Part shown: piece by piece, positions 22,794 to 53,653 of the stretch
Layout: each line of letters begins with the position of its first letter
Position numbering within the stretch: position 1 is the stretch's first letter
Assembly (NCBI GenBank): GCA_016873395.1
Contig: VGXG01000008.1
Coordinates: 1-62,215, forward strand
DNA from: Nitrospira sp.
Lineage (GTDB): Bacteria > Nitrospirota > Nitrospiria > Nitrospirales > Nitrospiraceae
DNA: 62,215 nt
Direction of reading: 5' to 3'
Position numbers and translations under genes: made by a program
Notes under the pieces: model-generated
Told to the model about the DNA's origin: nothing
The model's input: the letters and a program-made list of their open reading frames with translations, nothing else
The model's database searches: none

Positions 22794-24245
22794 ATGAAGC
22801 TGAACACTGCCATGACGGTCAACAGGATCTCTGACGAGGTCTGGGAAATCCCAGTCACGGAGAAGCCGGGCATGGTCGTGCCAGCGCGGATTTACGCCAC
22901 CGAACAGATCCTGACCAGCATGGACAGCGGAGTCTTCGAGCAGGTAACCAATGTCGCCTGCCTCCCCGGCATCCGCCGCTACGCCCTCTGCATGCCGGAC
23001 GGCCATTGGGGCTACGGATTTCCGATCGGCGGGGTGGCGGCGTTCGATCCCCATGAAGGGGTCATCTCGCCGGGCGGAGTCGGGTACGACATCAACTGCG
23101 GCATGCGACTGATCCGCACGGACCTCACGCTGGAGGATGTCAGACCACGCCTGGAACCATTGATGACCGAGTTGTTCCGGAAAGTCCCGGCCGGAGTCGG
23201 TTCCACCGGCTTCGTGCGGGTCAATCGGCAAGAGTTTGAAGAGGTCATGCGCAAGGGCGCCCGTTGGTGCGTGGCGCGGGGCTACGGCTGGCAGCAGGAC
23301 TTGGAGCGAATCGAGGAACAGGGGTGCATCCCCGGCGCCGACCCGTCCAAGATCAGCGACCAGGCTGTGAAGCGCGGCATCAACCAGCTCGGCACGTTAG
23401 GGTCCGGCAACCACTACCTGGAAGTCCAGGTGGCCGCCCAGGAACGGATCTTCGATCGGGAGACGGCCGCGAAGCTGGGGGTCACCGGCCATGATCAGAT
23501 CGTGGTCATGGTGCACTGCGGGTCACGCGGTTTTGGACACCAGGTGGCAAGCGACTACCTCAAGGTCTTCGAGAAGGCCATGCCACGCTACGGCATCTCC
23601 GTCAAGGACCAGCAACTCGCCTGTGCGCCCTTCCGTTCCCCGGAAGGGCAGGACTATTTCGCGGCCATGAACTGCGCGGCCAACAGCGCCTTTGCCAACC
23701 GACAGGTCATTACCCACCAGATCAGGGAAGCCTTTTCTTCGGTATTCGGCCGGCCGGCCGAAGCCATGGGCATGGAGATCGTCTACGACGTGGCCCACAA
23801 CATCGCCAAGGTGGAACGGTACGAAGAGGGAGAGCTGGTCGTCCATCGGAAAGGCTCCACGCGGGCCTTTGGACCCAACCGCCCGGAACTGCCGGACCGC
23901 TATAAAGAGACAGGACAACCGGTGATTTGCGGCGGTTCCATGGAGACCGGTTCCTATCTCCTCGTGGGGACCGACCGGGCCATGCACGAGACGTTCGGGT
24001 CCACGATGCACGGCTCGGGCCGGACCATGTCGCGCGCCCAGGCGAAGCGGTCGATACGAGGCGAGCAGTTGAAGAAAGATATGGCGCAGCGCGGGATTAT
24101 CGTCAAAGCCGTCTCGATGTCCGGTCTGGCCGAAGAAGCCGGCTTTGCCTACAAAAATATTTCCGATGTGGTCGAGACCGTAGACCGGGCCGGGATCACC
24201 AGAAAAGTGGCGGAGCTGCGTCCGATCGGGAATATCAAGGGGTAA
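22794..24245 (+). CDS. rtcB: RNA-splicing ligase RtcB
   Basis: A 483-residue RtcB, which joins 2',3'-cyclic phosphate or 3'-phosphate ends to 5'-OH ends of RNA using GTP and Mn2+. Active-site blocks are present in order: GVGYDINCGMRLIRT with the metal-binding Cys, GSGNHYLEVQ, MVHCGSRGFGHQV, VYDVAHNIAK and MHGSGRTMSRAQAKR, which contains the histidine that is guanylylated. The length is typical. Co-location with archease suggests RNA repair or RNA processing. It could act in stress-induced RNA cleavage and repair, but no nuclease target is visible next to it. Confidence 0.95.
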   Translation: MKLNTAMTVNRISDEVWEIPVTEKPGMVVPARIYATEQILTSMDSGVFEQVTNVACLPGIRRYALCMPDGHWGYGFPIGGVAAFDPHEGVISPGGVGYDINCGMRLIRTDLTLEDVRPRLEPLMTELFRKVPAGVGSTGFVRVNRQEFEEVMRKGARWCVARGYGWQQDLERIEEQGCIPGADPSKISDQAVKRGINQLGTLGSGNHYLEVQVAAQERIFDRETAAKLGVTGHDQIVVMVHCGSRGFGHQVASDYLKVFEKAMPRYGISVKDQQLACAPFRSPEGQDYFAAMNCAANSAFANRQVITHQIREAFSSVFGRPAEAMGMEIVYDVAHNIAKVERYEEGELVVHRKGSTRAFGPNRPELPDRYKETGQPVICGGSMETGSYLLVGTDRAMHETFGSTMHGSGRTMSRAQAKRSIRGEQLKKDMAQRGIIVKAVSMSGLAEEAGFAYKNISDVVETVDRAGITRKVAELRPIGNIKG

Positions 24246-24249
24246 CGGA

Positions 24250-24639
24250 GTGCTGCTGAGGCCGGGCCTATTGCTTCTTTTTTCCCTGGCTGCCTGTGCC
24301 CACGCGGTCACGCTCACGAATGTGCGCGACGGCACTGAAGCCACAGGGACCCATCATCCTTGGAGTCAGTCGATTCAGATCATCCTGCCGTCAGGCGAAC
24401 GGTGCGAAGGCCGATATCAGACACTGACGACCAAGACGCTAGGGGAGGAGTCCCTGTTTTACCGGTCGCACGTAGGCACGATCCTGGGACGCAATACGGT
24501 GGAACGGTTTCATGGGTATGCCCGCCTGACGGGAGAACAGGGCACCGTAGTCGAGGTCGTCTTTTCCAGCGGATGGACCGGAGGCGGCTTCGGTGTGGCC
24601 AAGGCCAGCTCCGGCGAGGAATATAGAGTGACCTTCTAG
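24250..24639 (+). CDS. Small lipoprotein, hypothetical
   Basis: A 129-residue protein with a GTG start just after rtcB. LLLLFSLAAC forms a lipoprotein signal with the lipid-attached Cys near residue 16. The mature part is beta-rich (IQIILPSGERCEGRYQTL, GTVVEVVFSSGWTGGGFGVAKASSG), with two glycine-rich strands. Family not recognised. Its stop shares a base with the possible GTG start of the WD40-caspase gene, suggesting the two are co-expressed. Confidence 0.7.
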   Translation: MLLRPGLLLLFSLAACAHAVTLTNVRDGTEATGTHHPWSQSIQIILPSGERCEGRYQTLTTKTLGEESLFYRSHVGTILGRNTVERFHGYARLTGEQGTVVEVVFSSGWTGGGFGVAKASSGEEYRVTF

Positions 24640-27600
24640 TGCATACGTTTCTTTGGCAGAACTCCATGACTGCATCGCGTCCGACCACGCATGTCCTCTC
24701 TGCCATGACCCTGTTGTGTGCACTCTTTCTGGCTGGCAGCCTGGCTCAGGCCAGACACACGCCGGGAGAAATTTTTGTGCCGCTGGGTCACGCAGGAGGG
24801 ATCGAGGCCGTGGCGTTCTCTCCGGACGGGCAATGGGCCCTGTCGGGCAGCGAGGACCAAACCCTCAAACTCTGGGAAGTGGCCACGGGGCGTGAGGTGC
24901 GGACCTTCAGCGGCCATGTCCAGGCGGTGACATCGGTCACCTTTTCCCCCGACGGCAAGTGGGCCCTGTCCGGAAGCTACGATCGGACCCTCAAGCTGTG
25001 GGACGTCGCGACGGGACAGGAACTGAGGACCTTCACCGGCCATGCCGAAGGGGTCTGGGACGTGGCCTTCTCACCGGACGGCAAGCAAGCTGTGTCGGCC
25101 AGCTATGACCAGACGCTTAAGCTTTGGGACGTCGAGACCGGACAGGAGATCCGCACGTTCAGCGGCCACACAGGCGGAGTGGGGGCCGTGGAATTTTCGC
25201 CGGACGGAAAATGGATCATCTCCGCGAGCGTGGACCAGACGATGAAGCTCTGGGACATCGCGACAGGGAGAGAAATCCGCACCCTCAGGGGCCATTCGCA
25301 AGCGGTGCGGGATGTCCTCTTCTCCCCGGACGGCAGGTGGGTCCTCTCGAGCAGCGAGGACCAGACCCTCAAGCTCTGGGAGGTCGCCACCGGACGAGTG
25401 GTCCAGACCTTCGCCGGCCATGTCCAAGGAATACGGGACGTGGCCTTCTCGCCCAACGGGCAGTTGGTTGCGTCCGCGAGTGAAGACCAGACGCTCAAGC
25501 TCTGGGACTTGAAGACCGGGCACGTCGTGCGGACTCTGAGCGGTCATAGCGAGCCGGTACGGGATGTCGTCTTCTCGCCTGATGGAAAGTGGGTCCTGTC
25601 CGGGAGCGAGGATCAGACGATCCGCCTGTGGGACGCGGCTACGGGAGGGGAGGTGCGGATTTTCAGCGGGCAGTTGCGGGAGACGCGAGATGTGGCCTTC
25701 TCGCCGGATGGACGCTGGGCCTTGACCGGTAGCCGGGACCGTACCTTGCGGCTCTGGGAGATCTCCACCGGACGGGCCTTGTGGACCCTCCGTGGACACG
25801 ATCGCGTGGTCACGGCTGTGACCTTCTCGCCGGACAATCGGTGGATCCTGTCCGGGAGCGAGGACCGGACCCTCAAGCTGTGGGACATGGCGACGGGCCG
25901 AGAACTGCGCACCTTCCGCGGGCATACCTGGGGGATTACAGACGTGGAATTCTCCCCCGATGGGCGCTGGGCCTTGTCCGGGAGCGGTGACCAGACCCTC
26001 AAGCTGTGGGAGGTCACGACAGGCCGGGAAGTTCGGACTTTCTACGGCCATGCACAGGCGGTGTGGGATGTCGCGTTTTCACCGGATGGACGCCGGGCAT
26101 TATCCGGGAGTGAAGACCAGACGATCAAGCTCTGGGACCTTGCCACGGGACGCCTTGTGAAGACATTCAGCGGCCACACGCAAGCGGTGCGGGATGTTCA
26201 ATTTTCCCCGGACGGGAAGTGGATCCTCTCCGGGAGCGTGGACCGGACGCTCAAACTCTGGGAGGTCGCCACCGGCCGAGAGGTGCGGACCTTCGAGGGT
26301 CATGGAGGGGGTGTCTGGGATGCGGCCTTCTCTCCCGATGGACGATGGCTCTTATCCGGGAGCGAGGATCAGACGCTCAAGCTCTGGGACGCGGGGACAG
26401 GGCAGACCTTGCGCACGTTCAGCGGCCACGCAGCAGTGGTGGCCGCCGTCGCCTTTTCAAAAGACGGACAATCGGCTCTCTCAGGAAGCCTGGACGGAAC
26501 GCTCAAGCTCTGGGAAATCAAGACCGGCAACCTGATCGCCACGCTGGTGGGGTTTCGGGACGGGGAATGGGTGGTCATGACCCCGGAAGGCTATTACAAT
26601 GCGTCGGTGGATGGGGATCAGCACTTGAACCTCCGCATCGGCTCCCACGTTTACGGCGTCGACCAGTTCCGGGCCACTTTCTACCAGCCGTCGATCGTCG
26701 AAGCCGCGTTGCGTCTGGGCGATAGCCAGAAGGCCCTCGCGGAAGTTCTGGGCGGTCGTCGCGACTTGCTTCAGGGTGTGGTCCTCCACACAATCGAGCC
26801 CCCTTCTGTGGTGATCAAAGCGCCTGGGAATGGCACGAGCCTGCCCACGCTGACTCCCACTCTTTCCATCCACGTCGAGGACTGGCATCAACCCATCCGC
26901 TGGCTGAGGGTCTACGTCAATGGGAGACGGATTACCGGACGGAACAACGAGGCCGGTCCCCAGGCAAATGGGGGTGCGCCGGTGGCATTCAGCTATCCGA
27001 TTCCGGAAGGGCGAAAGACGCTGGACCTCGATATTCCGGTCCGCCTGGAGCCGGGTGAGAATCTGGTGAAAGTCGTGGCCTTCAACGGGTTGGCCGAAAC
27101 AGGCGTGACCAGCCGCTTCACCGTCCCTATGATCCAACCTGCGCAACAGGACAAACAGACTCTGCCCAGACTGTGGATTCTCGCCGTGGGGGTCAACGTC
27201 TATCAGGACCATGAGCTTCCGTCCCTCTCCTATGCCGAGGCCGATGCGGATGCACTGGTACAGACCCTCACCACGCAACAGGGGAAGCTTTTTCGGGAAG
27301 TCCGGTCCCTGCGCCTCACCGATCACGGCCCCCTCAAACCGACCCATGACAACATCTTCAACAACCTTCCCTACCTGGCCCAGGCCGGAGAAGAAGATGT
27401 CCTGCTGATTTTTTTGGCGGGACATGGGCTTACCAACGAGCAAGGGGAGTTCTCGTTCCTCCCCAGCGACGCGGTGGTCCAGCAGGGGGGCACGATGCTC
27501 CCATCGCGGACGGTACCCTGGCGCAACCTGGCGACCGTGTTGGACCTCCCGGCCAGGAAGCTGTTCGTGACCGACACCTGCCACCTCGAAGGCTTCAAGG

Positions 27601-27914
27601 GCAACAAGGACCGTGCCGTGGACAATGACCGATTGGTCAAGGATCTCCAAGAATTTAACGCCACGATCATCACCGCCTGCCACCTGCGGGAGATCTCACG
27701 CGAAGACGAGCGGGCAGGACATGGCCTGTTTACCTTCTCCTTGCTCAAGGGGCTCAGCGGAGCAGCGGATCTGAACGGAGATCGCTCCGTCACGGTCACG
27801 GAATTAGGCAGCTACCTTTCAGAAGCTCTCCCGCTCTTGACGAACGGGGCTCAGTATCCGACGATCTACATCCCTCCCGGGTATGCCACCCTTCGCATGA
27901 CCGTTTTGGAATGA
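24639..27914 (+). CDS. Exported WD40-repeat caspase-like protein
   Basis: A 1091-residue protein from GTG 24639, or 1082 residues from ATG 24666, which gives a more normal signal peptide (TLLCALFLAGSLAQA). Fourteen WD40 repeats of about 42 residues follow, enough for two seven-bladed propellers; most end in LKLWD or LKLWE. A linker with an Ig-like segment (HQPIRWLRVYVNGRRI) leads to a C14 caspase-like domain. The His is in FLAGHG (H920, counting from ATG 24666) and the Cys in FVTDTCH (C972), so the dyad is intact. The signal peptide implies the peptidase acts outside the cytoplasm, unusual for prokaryotic caspase homologues. Substrates are unknown; a role in envelope stress or conflict is inference. 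Confidence 0.88.
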   Translation: MHTFLWQNSMTASRPTTHVLSAMTLLCALFLAGSLAQARHTPGEIFVPLGHAGGIEAVAFSPDGQWALSGSEDQTLKLWEVATGREVRTFSGHVQAVTSVTFSPDGKWALSGSYDRTLKLWDVATGQELRTFTGHAEGVWDVAFSPDGKQAVSASYDQTLKLWDVETGQEIRTFSGHTGGVGAVEFSPDGKWIISASVDQTMKLWDIATGREIRTLRGHSQAVRDVLFSPDGRWVLSSSEDQTLKLWEVATGRVVQTFAGHVQGIRDVAFSPNGQLVASASEDQTLKLWDLKTGHVVRTLSGHSEPVRDVVFSPDGKWVLSGSEDQTIRLWDAATGGEVRIFSGQLRETRDVAFSPDGRWALTGSRDRTLRLWEISTGRALWTLRGHDRVVTAVTFSPDNRWILSGSEDRTLKLWDMATGRELRTFRGHTWGITDVEFSPDGRWALSGSGDQTLKLWEVTTGREVRTFYGHAQAVWDVAFSPDGRRALSGSEDQTIKLWDLATGRLVKTFSGHTQAVRDVQFSPDGKWILSGSVDRTLKLWEVATGREVRTFEGHGGGVWDAAFSPDGRWLLSGSEDQTLKLWDAGTGQTLRTFSGHAAVVAAVAFSKDGQSALSGSLDGTLKLWEIKTGNLIATLVGFRDGEWVVMTPEGYYNASVDGDQHLNLRIGSHVYGVDQFRATFYQPSIVEAALRLGDSQKALAEVLGGRRDLLQGVVLHTIEPPSVVIKAPGNGTSLPTLTPTLSIHVEDWHQPIRWLRVYVNGRRITGRNNEAGPQANGGAPVAFSYPIPEGRKTLDLDIPVRLEPGENLVKVVAFNGLAETGVTSRFTVPMIQPAQQDKQTLPRLWILAVGVNVYQDHELPSLSYAEADADALVQTLTTQQGKLFREVRSLRLTDHGPLKPTHDNIFNNLPYLAQAGEEDVLLIFLAGHGLTNEQGEFSFLPSDAVVQQGGTMLPSRTVPWRNLATVLDLPARKLFVTDTCHLEGFKGNKDRAVDNDRLVKDLQEFNATIITACHLREISREDERAGHGLFTFSLLKGLSGAADLNGDRSVTVTELGSYLSEALPLLTNGAQYPTIYIPPGYATLRMTVLE
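24787..26530 (+). repeat. Fourteen near-identical 126-bp WD40-coding repeats
   Basis: The WD40 units are alike at DNA level (gacgggaagtggatcctgtc, ctcaagctctgggac and similar recur), which suggests recent duplication or gene conversion. Repeat number may vary between strains and assembly collapse is possible. Confidence 0.85.
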
Positions 27915-28076: not shown

Positions 28077-28985
28077 ATGCCGCTGAAATACGCGCTCTAT
28101 CCAGGCTGCGCCGCAAAGGGCGCTACGCCGGAACTGTACCAGTCCACGATGGCGATCATCGGACGCCTCGGGATCGAGGTCGTGGAGTTGGGGGCTGCCT
28201 CCTGCTGCGGGGCCGGGGTGGTCGGGGAGGCTGATCCGGACGTCGCCCTGGCGCTAAATGCCAGGACCTTTGCTCAAGCCGAGCAACTGGGTCTGGACGT
28301 GATGACCATCTGTGGGACCTGCCAGGGAGTGATGGGGGCTGCCAACAAACGGCTGAAGCAGGAATCGGGGTTGTTGGAACGGACGAACCGCCTCTTGCAG
28401 CAGGACGGCATTGCCTACCGCGGCACCGTCCAGGTCAAACATCTCCTCTGGATCGTGGTTCGGGAAGTGGGGCTGGCGAAGCTGGCCTCACTGGTGCGGG
28501 TCCCGTTCGATGATCTCCGGATTGCCCCTTTCTACGGCTGCTACATCCTCCGGCCCTCGTGGGACCTCGGATTCGACGATCCGGAAAATCCCACCTCCCT
28601 GGAAAAAGTCATCCAAACGGTCAAGGGTACGCCGGTGCCCTATGCGGGACGGACTAAATGCTGCGGCTTCCCGATTATCCTGGAGAAGGAAGCGATTGCT
28701 ATGGCTATGGCTGGCGCGAATATGAAGGAAGCCAAGGATGAGGGAGCCGATTTCATGGTCACGCCTTGTCCGCTCTGCCATATGAGTCTGGACATCTATC
28801 AGGAACGGGCGGGCCAGGCGGTCAAGACGAACCTGAACTTGCCCATCCTACACTTACCTCAGTTGCTCGGCTTGGCCATGGGCGTCCCGGCCAAGGACCT
28901 GGGCCTCTCGCGCCATCTCGTGCCGGTTGATTCGATCATCAAAACTATCGAAAAACGACGGGCTGAGCCAACGCCAGTCCAGTAG
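28077..28985 (+). CDS. HdrB-like CCG-domain protein (SdhE/TfrB C-terminal type)
   Basis: About 302 residues from ATG 28077 (GAGGA just upstream); an upstream in-frame start at 28008 is less likely. It has two CCG domains with non-cubane [4Fe-4S] ligands. The first has LYPGCAAKG, SCCGAG and CGTCQG; the second has YGCYILRP, KCCGFP and CPLCHMSL. Such proteins are HdrB, or the E subunit of non-classical succinate:quinone reductases, or the C-terminal half of thiol:fumarate reductase. With the SdhB/TfrB-like gene 5.8 kb upstream, a role in fumarate/succinate metabolism is the leading idea. It is probably soluble or membrane-associated through amphipathic helices. Confidence 0.88.
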   Translation: MPLKYALYPGCAAKGATPELYQSTMAIIGRLGIEVVELGAASCCGAGVVGEADPDVALALNARTFAQAEQLGLDVMTICGTCQGVMGAANKRLKQESGLLERTNRLLQQDGIAYRGTVQVKHLLWIVVREVGLAKLASLVRVPFDDLRIAPFYGCYILRPSWDLGFDDPENPTSLEKVIQTVKGTPVPYAGRTKCCGFPIILEKEAIAMAMAGANMKEAKDEGADFMVTPCPLCHMSLDIYQERAGQAVKTNLNLPILHLPQLLGLAMGVPAKDLGLSRHLVPVDSIIKTIEKRRAEPTPVQ

Positions 28986-52285: not shown

Positions 52286-53653
52286 ATGCAACGATTACGT
52301 ACCCCGTTCACAAAACTGGCCTTGACGGCGGTTCTGGTCTGTACCGCCGCCACCACCGCGTCAGGCCAGCTCGGCCGCCCCGAAGGTTTGTACTACAAAT
52401 CCTGGGGAGTAGTGATCGGTATCGACGACTACCAAGTCGCTCCGAAACTGGCCGGGTCCGTGTCCGACGCCAAGTCCGTTGCCGTCGCACTGCGTCAGCT
52501 CGGCTTCGACGACATCATCGAGGTCTACGACAAAGACGCGAAGTCCAGAAACCTCAAAGCCATCCTGTCGAACGATCTGCCGCGGAAGGTGGGCCGCCAG
52601 GACCGGGTCGTCGTGTTTTTCGCAGGTCATGCCGCTGTCACGCGCGACATGAACGGGAAAGACCTGGGTTACCTCGTGCCCTGGGACGCCCAGATCGCCA
52701 ACGTTTCCAAAGCCGTGACCTTGGACGACCTGAAGGAGTTTTCGCGCCGCGTGATGTCCAAACACGTTCTGTTCGTGCTGGACGCTGCGGTGGCCGGATG
52801 GGACATCACGCCGCCTCAACAACTGTCTCTGGAAGGACGGCTCTCCCCGGAGGATGAAACCGATCGGCGGTCAGTCCAGATCCTCACGGCCGCCGGCAAG
52901 GGAGAGACCGTGACTCAGAAAGACGGGCAGGGAATCTTCACGCAGGCCTTCATGGCCGGGCTCAAGGGCGCTGCCGACAACAACAAGAACGGCTGGGTTA
53001 TGGGCACCGAGCTGGCCGCCTATATCAAGCAACAGGTGGAGCAGGCCACGGGAGGCGCCCAGCATCCTCAATTCGCCCGCCTGGATGGGGATGGGGACAT
53101 CGTCTTGGTCGAAGGGAAAAAGAGCGCGTTTCGGGCCGGGCCGGAGCCCAAGACCCAGACCGAACGGACGGCGGCGGCGAAAGAAGAGTATGACAAGGCC
53201 TATTCGCTGTTGCAGCAGCAACGTTCCGTGCAGGAAGCGATCGAACGGCTGAACAAGGCGATCGGGTATGACCCCGCCTTCGGAGATGCTTACGTGCTGA
53301 AGAGCTATATCCTGTTGGAACTCCAGCCCAACCTGGATGAGGCCCTGGTGGCCGGCGAATTGGCGGTCAAACACGCGCCCAAGAATCCGGACTCGCACTA
53401 TACGCTTGGATTAGTGCTGCAAAAGAAAGGCCGCTTCGCGGACGCGGAGCGGGCCCTGCTCCAAGCGGCGGCCGTCAATGCTGCCTATACGGATGTCTAT
53501 CTCTCGCTAGGGGACCTCTACGCGGAAGACCTCAAGGATCAGAAGAAGGCCGCGGAAGCCTACCGCCGCTACCTGAAGACAGGCGGCACTGAAAACAGAG
53601 TGCGGGACTACCTGCAAGAGAAGGGCGGCGCCGCGCCGCCTACGAAACAGTAG
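52286..53653 (+). CDS. Exported caspase-like/TPR protein lacking the catalytic Cys
   Basis: A 455-residue protein with a signal peptide (LALTAVLVCTAATTASG). Residues 35-260 have the C14 caspase fold (WGVVIGIDDYQ, DAKSVAVALRQLGFDDI). The His is kept (FFAGHA, H115), but where active homologues have DAC the sequence reads LDAAVAG, with A168 replacing Cys. It is therefore probably not a peptidase. Residues 290-440 contain about four TPR units (AIERLNKAIGYDPAFGDAY, PDSHYTLGLVLQKKGRFADA). It may act as a periplasmic scaffold. It lies about 600 bases before a lipoprotein operon on the same strand. Confidence 0.85.
   Translation: MQRLRTPFTKLALTAVLVCTAATTASGQLGRPEGLYYKSWGVVIGIDDYQVAPKLAGSVSDAKSVAVALRQLGFDDIIEVYDKDAKSRNLKAILSNDLPRKVGRQDRVVVFFAGHAAVTRDMNGKDLGYLVPWDAQIANVSKAVTLDDLKEFSRRVMSKHVLFVLDAAVAGWDITPPQQLSLEGRLSPEDETDRRSVQILTAAGKGETVTQKDGQGIFTQAFMAGLKGAADNNKNGWVMGTELAAYIKQQVEQATGGAQHPQFARLDGDGDIVLVEGKKSAFRAGPEPKTQTERTAAAKEEYDKAYSLLQQQRSVQEAIERLNKAIGYDPAFGDAYVLKSYILLELQPNLDEALVAGELAVKHAPKNPDSHYTLGLVLQKKGRFADAERALLQAAAVNAAYTDVYLSLGDLYAEDLKDQKKAAEAYRRYLKTGGTENRVRDYLQEKGGAAPPTKQ

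Follow-up and report, generated by a model that had tools for sequence, protein, structure and literature searches.

A predicted exported WD40 double-propeller caspase of Nitrospira with conserved putative contact faces

What role could be played by a bacterial protein in which fourteen WD40 blades and a caspase domain lie behind an apparent signal peptide: that of an exported peptidase with fixed binding surfaces, that of a recognition protein whose repeats change rapidly under conflict, that of a scaffold, or that of a cytosolic regulator? The question is raised by a locus of Nitrospira sp. (contig VGXG01000008.1), analysed here within a window of 62,215 nucleotides, by which we mean the whole stretch of DNA considered. 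A single open reading frame spans positions 24639-27914 of this window, and both the gene and its placement are confirmed. The open frame begins at GTG 24639, and ATG 24666 has been taken as the start because a clean signal peptide results from it; the residue numbers used below (His929, Cys981, Asp869, Asp979 and R39) nevertheless are counted from the GTG of the open frame. The parts of the protein succeed one another in the order signal peptide, 14 WD40 blades, DGEW-TPEGYY linker, Ig-like domain and Peptidase_C14:

24666..27914, + strand: coding sequence of the WD40-caspase, predicted to be exported, 1082 aa counted from the ATG
24666..24752, + strand: predicted signal peptide MTASRPTTHVLSAMTLLCALFLAGSLAQA, cleavage predicted before R39 (sequence, heuristic scan, signal-peptide-like orthologue N-termini)
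24786..25631, + strand: propeller 1, WD40 blades 1-7 (PF00400; model against the 7-bladed 7bie)
25632..26513, + strand: propeller 2, WD40 blades 8-14 (PF00400; R1 code RTTWRW[A/V], D-1 code RxGEVEL; model against 2ymu)
26547..26633, + strand: conserved linker VGFRDGEWVVMTPEGYYNAS, hallmark of the SP-WD40-caspase family
26805..27125, + strand: Ig-like domain (Big_7 matched weakly, E=0.03; strands of a beta-sandwich in the model)
27177..27869, + strand: caspase (Peptidase_C14) domain (PF00656; Foldseek)

The double propeller announced in a preliminary description of this locus is borne out by both sequence and model. The 14 PF00400 stretches correspond to 14 units of exactly 42 aa each, and the full-length model (mean pLDDT 84.9) arranges the 14 blades in two rings, each within the 6-8 blades that characterize a WD40 double propeller, together with the Ig and caspase domains. 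Propeller 1 of the model superimposes on the 7-bladed WRAP-T (7bie) with an rmsd of 0.8 A over 286 residues (Z 49.9), and the comparison with the double propeller 2ymu gives a Z of 50.2 over 561 residues, the rmsd being 14.6 over both rings; the VIA rows refer mainly to propeller 1 and are uninformative on the caspase part. In the C-terminal part, PF00656 is matched with 40.6 bits against a cut-off of 21.4 (E=3e-10), and Foldseek, starting from the C-terminal model (mean pLDDT 67), recovers MALT1 (7ak0, E=1.9e-9) and metacaspases (E=2e-8 and weaker), which, together with the His-Cys dyad, places the protein in the C14 family. A phmmer search of the C-terminus against PDB sequences returned no match, the connection to solved caspases being one of fold comparison only.

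The WD40-caspase is an accessory gene, present in few genomes: the gene or a close relative is found, in a patchy manner, in 7 of the 236 genomes of the order, the source genome included, and the named relatives belong to Nitrospira, to Nitrospirota MAGs and to Candidatus Magnetobacterium casense. Full-length 14-blade orthologues occur in G019, G030 (MAG REEB37), G011 and G198 (Nitrospira sp. M_DeepCast_65m, whose contig C17 is our locus L060), and with the source genome included, five genomes from three genera thus share a blade number of 14. The four are alike in their signal-peptide-like N-terminus, 14 blades, linker, Ig and caspase domains and closely similar R1/D-1 codes, and the identity of the C-terminal part to them is 44-49%; they differ from the source gene in occupying another chromosomal place, head-to-head with a GAF-sigma54 regulator, and, in G011, in carrying Gln for the catalytic His. 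Further away, the family defined by the DGEW-TPEGYY linker (Ca. Magnetobacterium casense, Smithella, Sideroxydans, Holophaga, Armatimonadetes) retains the N-terminal export signal, WD40, linker, Ig and C14, with 28-40% identity in the C-terminal part and differing blade numbers.

With respect to location, the N-terminus, MTASRPTTHVLSAMTLLCALFLAGSLAQA followed by R, is signal-peptide-like according to a simple rule, inspection by eye and comparison with orthologues, and N-termini similar in kind are present in all four 14-blade orthologues; the export predicted in the preliminary description is supported by sequence and model. It could be argued that the hydrophobic N-terminal stretch is a misread start and that the protein is a cytosolic regulator, as in NACHT/WD40 metacaspases, given that the ATG start is a predicted one and the frame could begin at GTG 24639 or further in. 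We regard this as very improbable, since hydrophobic, mostly A-x-A ended N-termini recur in the four 14-blade orthologues and in most distant relatives, and the mature chain of 1053 aa is poor in Cys (two in all).

What finds no support is the idea that the protein would be unusual because it is exported. In a small and non-random sample, the caspase-fold ORFs of the fetched loci whose 5′ end is readable, an export-like N-terminus (signal- or lipoprotein-like by a simple rule) is seen in 14 out of 19, and the same plan of signal peptide, WD40, linker, Ig and caspase reappears in Holophaga, Smithella, Sideroxydans and Armatimonadetes MAGs, all of which suggests that WD40-caspases are commonly exported, in Nitrospirales as well as outside them. 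Furthermore, among the 671 prokaryotic metacaspases surveyed in 2012, WD40 was the commonest partner domain (73/671), and N-terminal helices were pointed out there as likely signal peptides (PMC3501461), so that this kind of protein was already known; the WD40 forms singled out in that survey are NACHT-linked, whereas the Nitrospira WD40-caspase has no NTPase domain.

The residues on which proteolysis would depend are the following:

27423..27425, + strand: catalytic His929, in AGHG (sequence, alignment)
27579..27581, + strand: catalytic Cys981, in DTCH, C972 counted from the ATG (sequence, alignment)
27243..27245, + strand: Asp869, at the position of the S1-pocket Asp95 of TbMCA2, invariant in 15 aligned sequences (PMC4357240, PMC6426788)
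27573..27575, + strand: Asp979, at the position of the S1-pocket Asp211 of TbMCA2, by alignment (PMC4357240, PMC6426788)

The dyad is intact, as had been claimed, in sequence and model alike, and C972 is the correct number when counted from ATG 24666. In the basic-specific metacaspase TbMCA2 the S1 aspartates are D95 and D211 (PMC4357240, PMC6426788), and by alignment position the two acidic S1 residues typical of orthocaspases and metacaspases are both present here, in such a way that the His929/Cys981 dyad and the acidic pair (Asp869, Asp979) would predict cleavage after Arg or Lys. The His, the Cys and both aspartates are also intact in G019, G030, G198, G061 and G077. In G011 (L037) and in Candidatus Magnetobacterium casense (L061), Gln takes the place of the catalytic His, and catalysis would therefore be dispensable in some lineages. 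Another exported protein with a caspase fold, carrying TPR repeats, is encoded in the same window at 52286-53653 (+); in it the His is kept (FFAGHA) and the Cys is replaced (LDAAVAGW), and it is therefore likely a pseudo-caspase.

These replacements keep in play another explanation, according to which the protein is a pseudo-protease or scaffold: an exported adaptor would use its caspase fold for binding or as a structural module, and only part of the clade would have kept the dyad. The exported protein without Cys could be adduced in its favor, as could the fact that pseudo-orthocaspases are known (PMC6426788). Nevertheless, as the full set of catalytic and S1 residues has been maintained in the source gene and in the five genomes just mentioned, we consider it unlikely for the Nitrospira protein.

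The preliminary description had spoken of fourteen nearly identical WD40 units. The number stands but the near identity does not: the mean pairwise identity of the blades is 60% in protein (48-79) and 64% in DNA (52-75), and synonymous sites are close to randomized, the identity at four-fold degenerate sites between blades being 0.40 vs 0.36 expected from codon usage. The longest exact repeat of the array is 21 nt, for which reason its collapse in short-read assembly is unlikely, and TRF detects only a 68% array of about 5.6 copies. Propellers have been classed as highly repetitive when their median blade identity is above 60% (PMC9218822), and with a mean of 60% the array would therefore lie at the edge of that class and be old; the recent amplification visible at the DNA level (PMC9218822) is not seen in it. 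In other words, it shares with highly repetitive propellers such as PDB 2ymu the 14 blades and the two rings, and differs from them in blades that stand at the threshold, diverged anciently and have no recent amplification (PMC9218822).

The positions R1-2, R1 and D-1 are those used for contact by most WD40 complexes (PMC3419727), and correspond here to unit positions 17, 19 and 35. They are among the most variable positions between the blades of one protein, and all three are nonetheless kept at the same blade from genus to genus. When the same blade is compared across genera, D-1 identity is 0.79 vs 0.22 in permuted blade order, and R1 identity 0.57 vs 0.20, with 0 of 2000 permutations reaching the observed value in either case, and of all unit positions these two show the largest same-blade gain. 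Taken by itself, propeller 1 gives a weaker signal, the R1 residues of its blades 4-7 not being the same in the source genome as in the others. Such blade-by-blade retention across genera points to purifying selection on the contact faces, which would form a predicted fixed binding surface, the opposite of what an arms race would leave behind.

The arms-race reading goes back to the preliminary description, which had proposed fast turnover as in recognition proteins under conflict, the blades amplifying and diversifying so as to track a changing target, and had named as its own refutation a repeat number and sequence fixed among relatives. For the Nitrospira gene this reading is contradicted and largely refuted, and we hold it to be decidedly improbable: the number of blades does not depart from 14 in the five genomes, each blade has conserved surface positions of its own, and the synonymous sites between blades are near saturation. 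Moreover, the neighbors of the caspase are housekeeping genes with none of defence type among them, and PADLOC gives only weak matches to its generic caspase model, short of an anti-phage defence assignment. The patchy distribution in the order would fit with conflict, as would two observations made in relatives.

The first of these concerns L060. Its four-fold identity to G019 is 0.78 in blades 1-7 and 0.85 in the caspase, and falls to 0.49 in blades 8-14 and 0.54 in the linker and Ig domain, the similarity breaking at the border between blades 7 and 8; the linker-Ig part is instead common to L060 and G030, with a four-fold identity of 0.77. We read the propeller-2/Ig block of L060 as the product of recombination with a diverged homologue, although it may be a MAG chimera, and a search for the donor of the propeller-2 block did not find one. 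In the incoming propeller the R1 code is retained.

The second observation concerns G061 (L101 = G061:C436) and G077 (L102 = G077:C37), where WD40-caspase paralogues form a tandem of three genes. The first paralogue is 96% identical between the two in its C-terminal part and has at least 10 blades in G061 and 5 in G077, where there is an exact blade repeat of 133 nt. The difference in blade number fits real turnover, assembly collapse being the alternative; the turnover idea is contradicted for the 14-blade Nitrospira gene and fits a paralogue in another genus. A gene for a CHASE2-sigma54 protein follows the first of the three tandem genes in L101 and L102.

The genomic context directs attention to two further candidates for association with the caspase, the first of which belongs to the following arrangement:

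22794-24639 and 28077-28985: conserved rtcB-lipoprotein-HdrB-like block around the caspase, interrupted by it only in the source genome among those compared

The upstream lipoprotein gene, whose linkage to the caspase the preliminary description had proposed to check, is part of this block, and the linkage is not conserved. In G019, G197 and G198 about 130 nt separate the lipoprotein from the HdrB-like gene, with no caspase between them, so that the caspase gene was either inserted in the source genome or lost from this site in those three; in G019 and G198 it is on a contig other than that of the lipoprotein homologue. The lipoprotein is consequently rejected as a partner, its homologues adjoining rtcB and the HdrB-like gene. 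In the source genome, the gene spacing indicates that the caspase is probably transcribed together with the block. Its codon usage is that of the neighborhood, with no sign by this measure of recent foreign origin, and the search for plasmid or phage carriage gave distant matches only.

The second candidate is the divergent GAF-sigma54 regulator that stands head-to-head with the caspase in G019, G198, G030 and G011. Between the two genes, near the start of the regulator, there is a conserved palindrome, TGCCCATATGTGGGCA (L036 9858, L037 9924, L038 10784, L060 3980), which is absent from the source window, and no sigma54-type promoter was found upstream of the caspase genes. Relatives of the regulator occur in 50 of 172 genomes, many of them without the caspase, and none is present in the source genome (G000); with this distribution and a window lacking the palindrome, the regulator is rejected as an obligate partner, and the comparison yields no partner gene that is conserved.

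In summary, we consider it probable that the gene encodes a Sec-exported, soluble, periplasmic or released orthocaspase-like peptidase with two fixed WD40 faces and a predicted cleavage after Arg or Lys. Sec export would deliver the soluble protein to the periplasm or beyond the cell; the two 7-bladed propellers would present fixed faces for protein binding, by which a single conserved partner or substrate is positioned; through the linker and the Ig-like domain they would be joined to the C14 caspase domain; and the binding of a ligand to the propellers would control or direct cleavage. We infer the periplasmic location, the proteolytic activity, the basic specificity and the control by ligand from the features described above.

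A double WD40 propeller is also found in Apaf-1, a plan common to the Nitrospira WD40-caspase. From this shared plan one could imagine a one-chain, exported analogue of the apoptosome, which would sense a conserved periplasmic protein and switch on the proteolysis of envelope proteins, a highly speculative analogy to which we attach very little probability. The periplasm is the compartment of the bacterial c-type cytochromes and, since the export of WD40-caspases is apparently common, it would be a place in which to seek their substrates. A concrete bait could be designed from the contact code conserved in propeller 2, and the loss of the His in two lineages that have kept the remaining architecture would serve as a natural experiment on the need for proteolysis.
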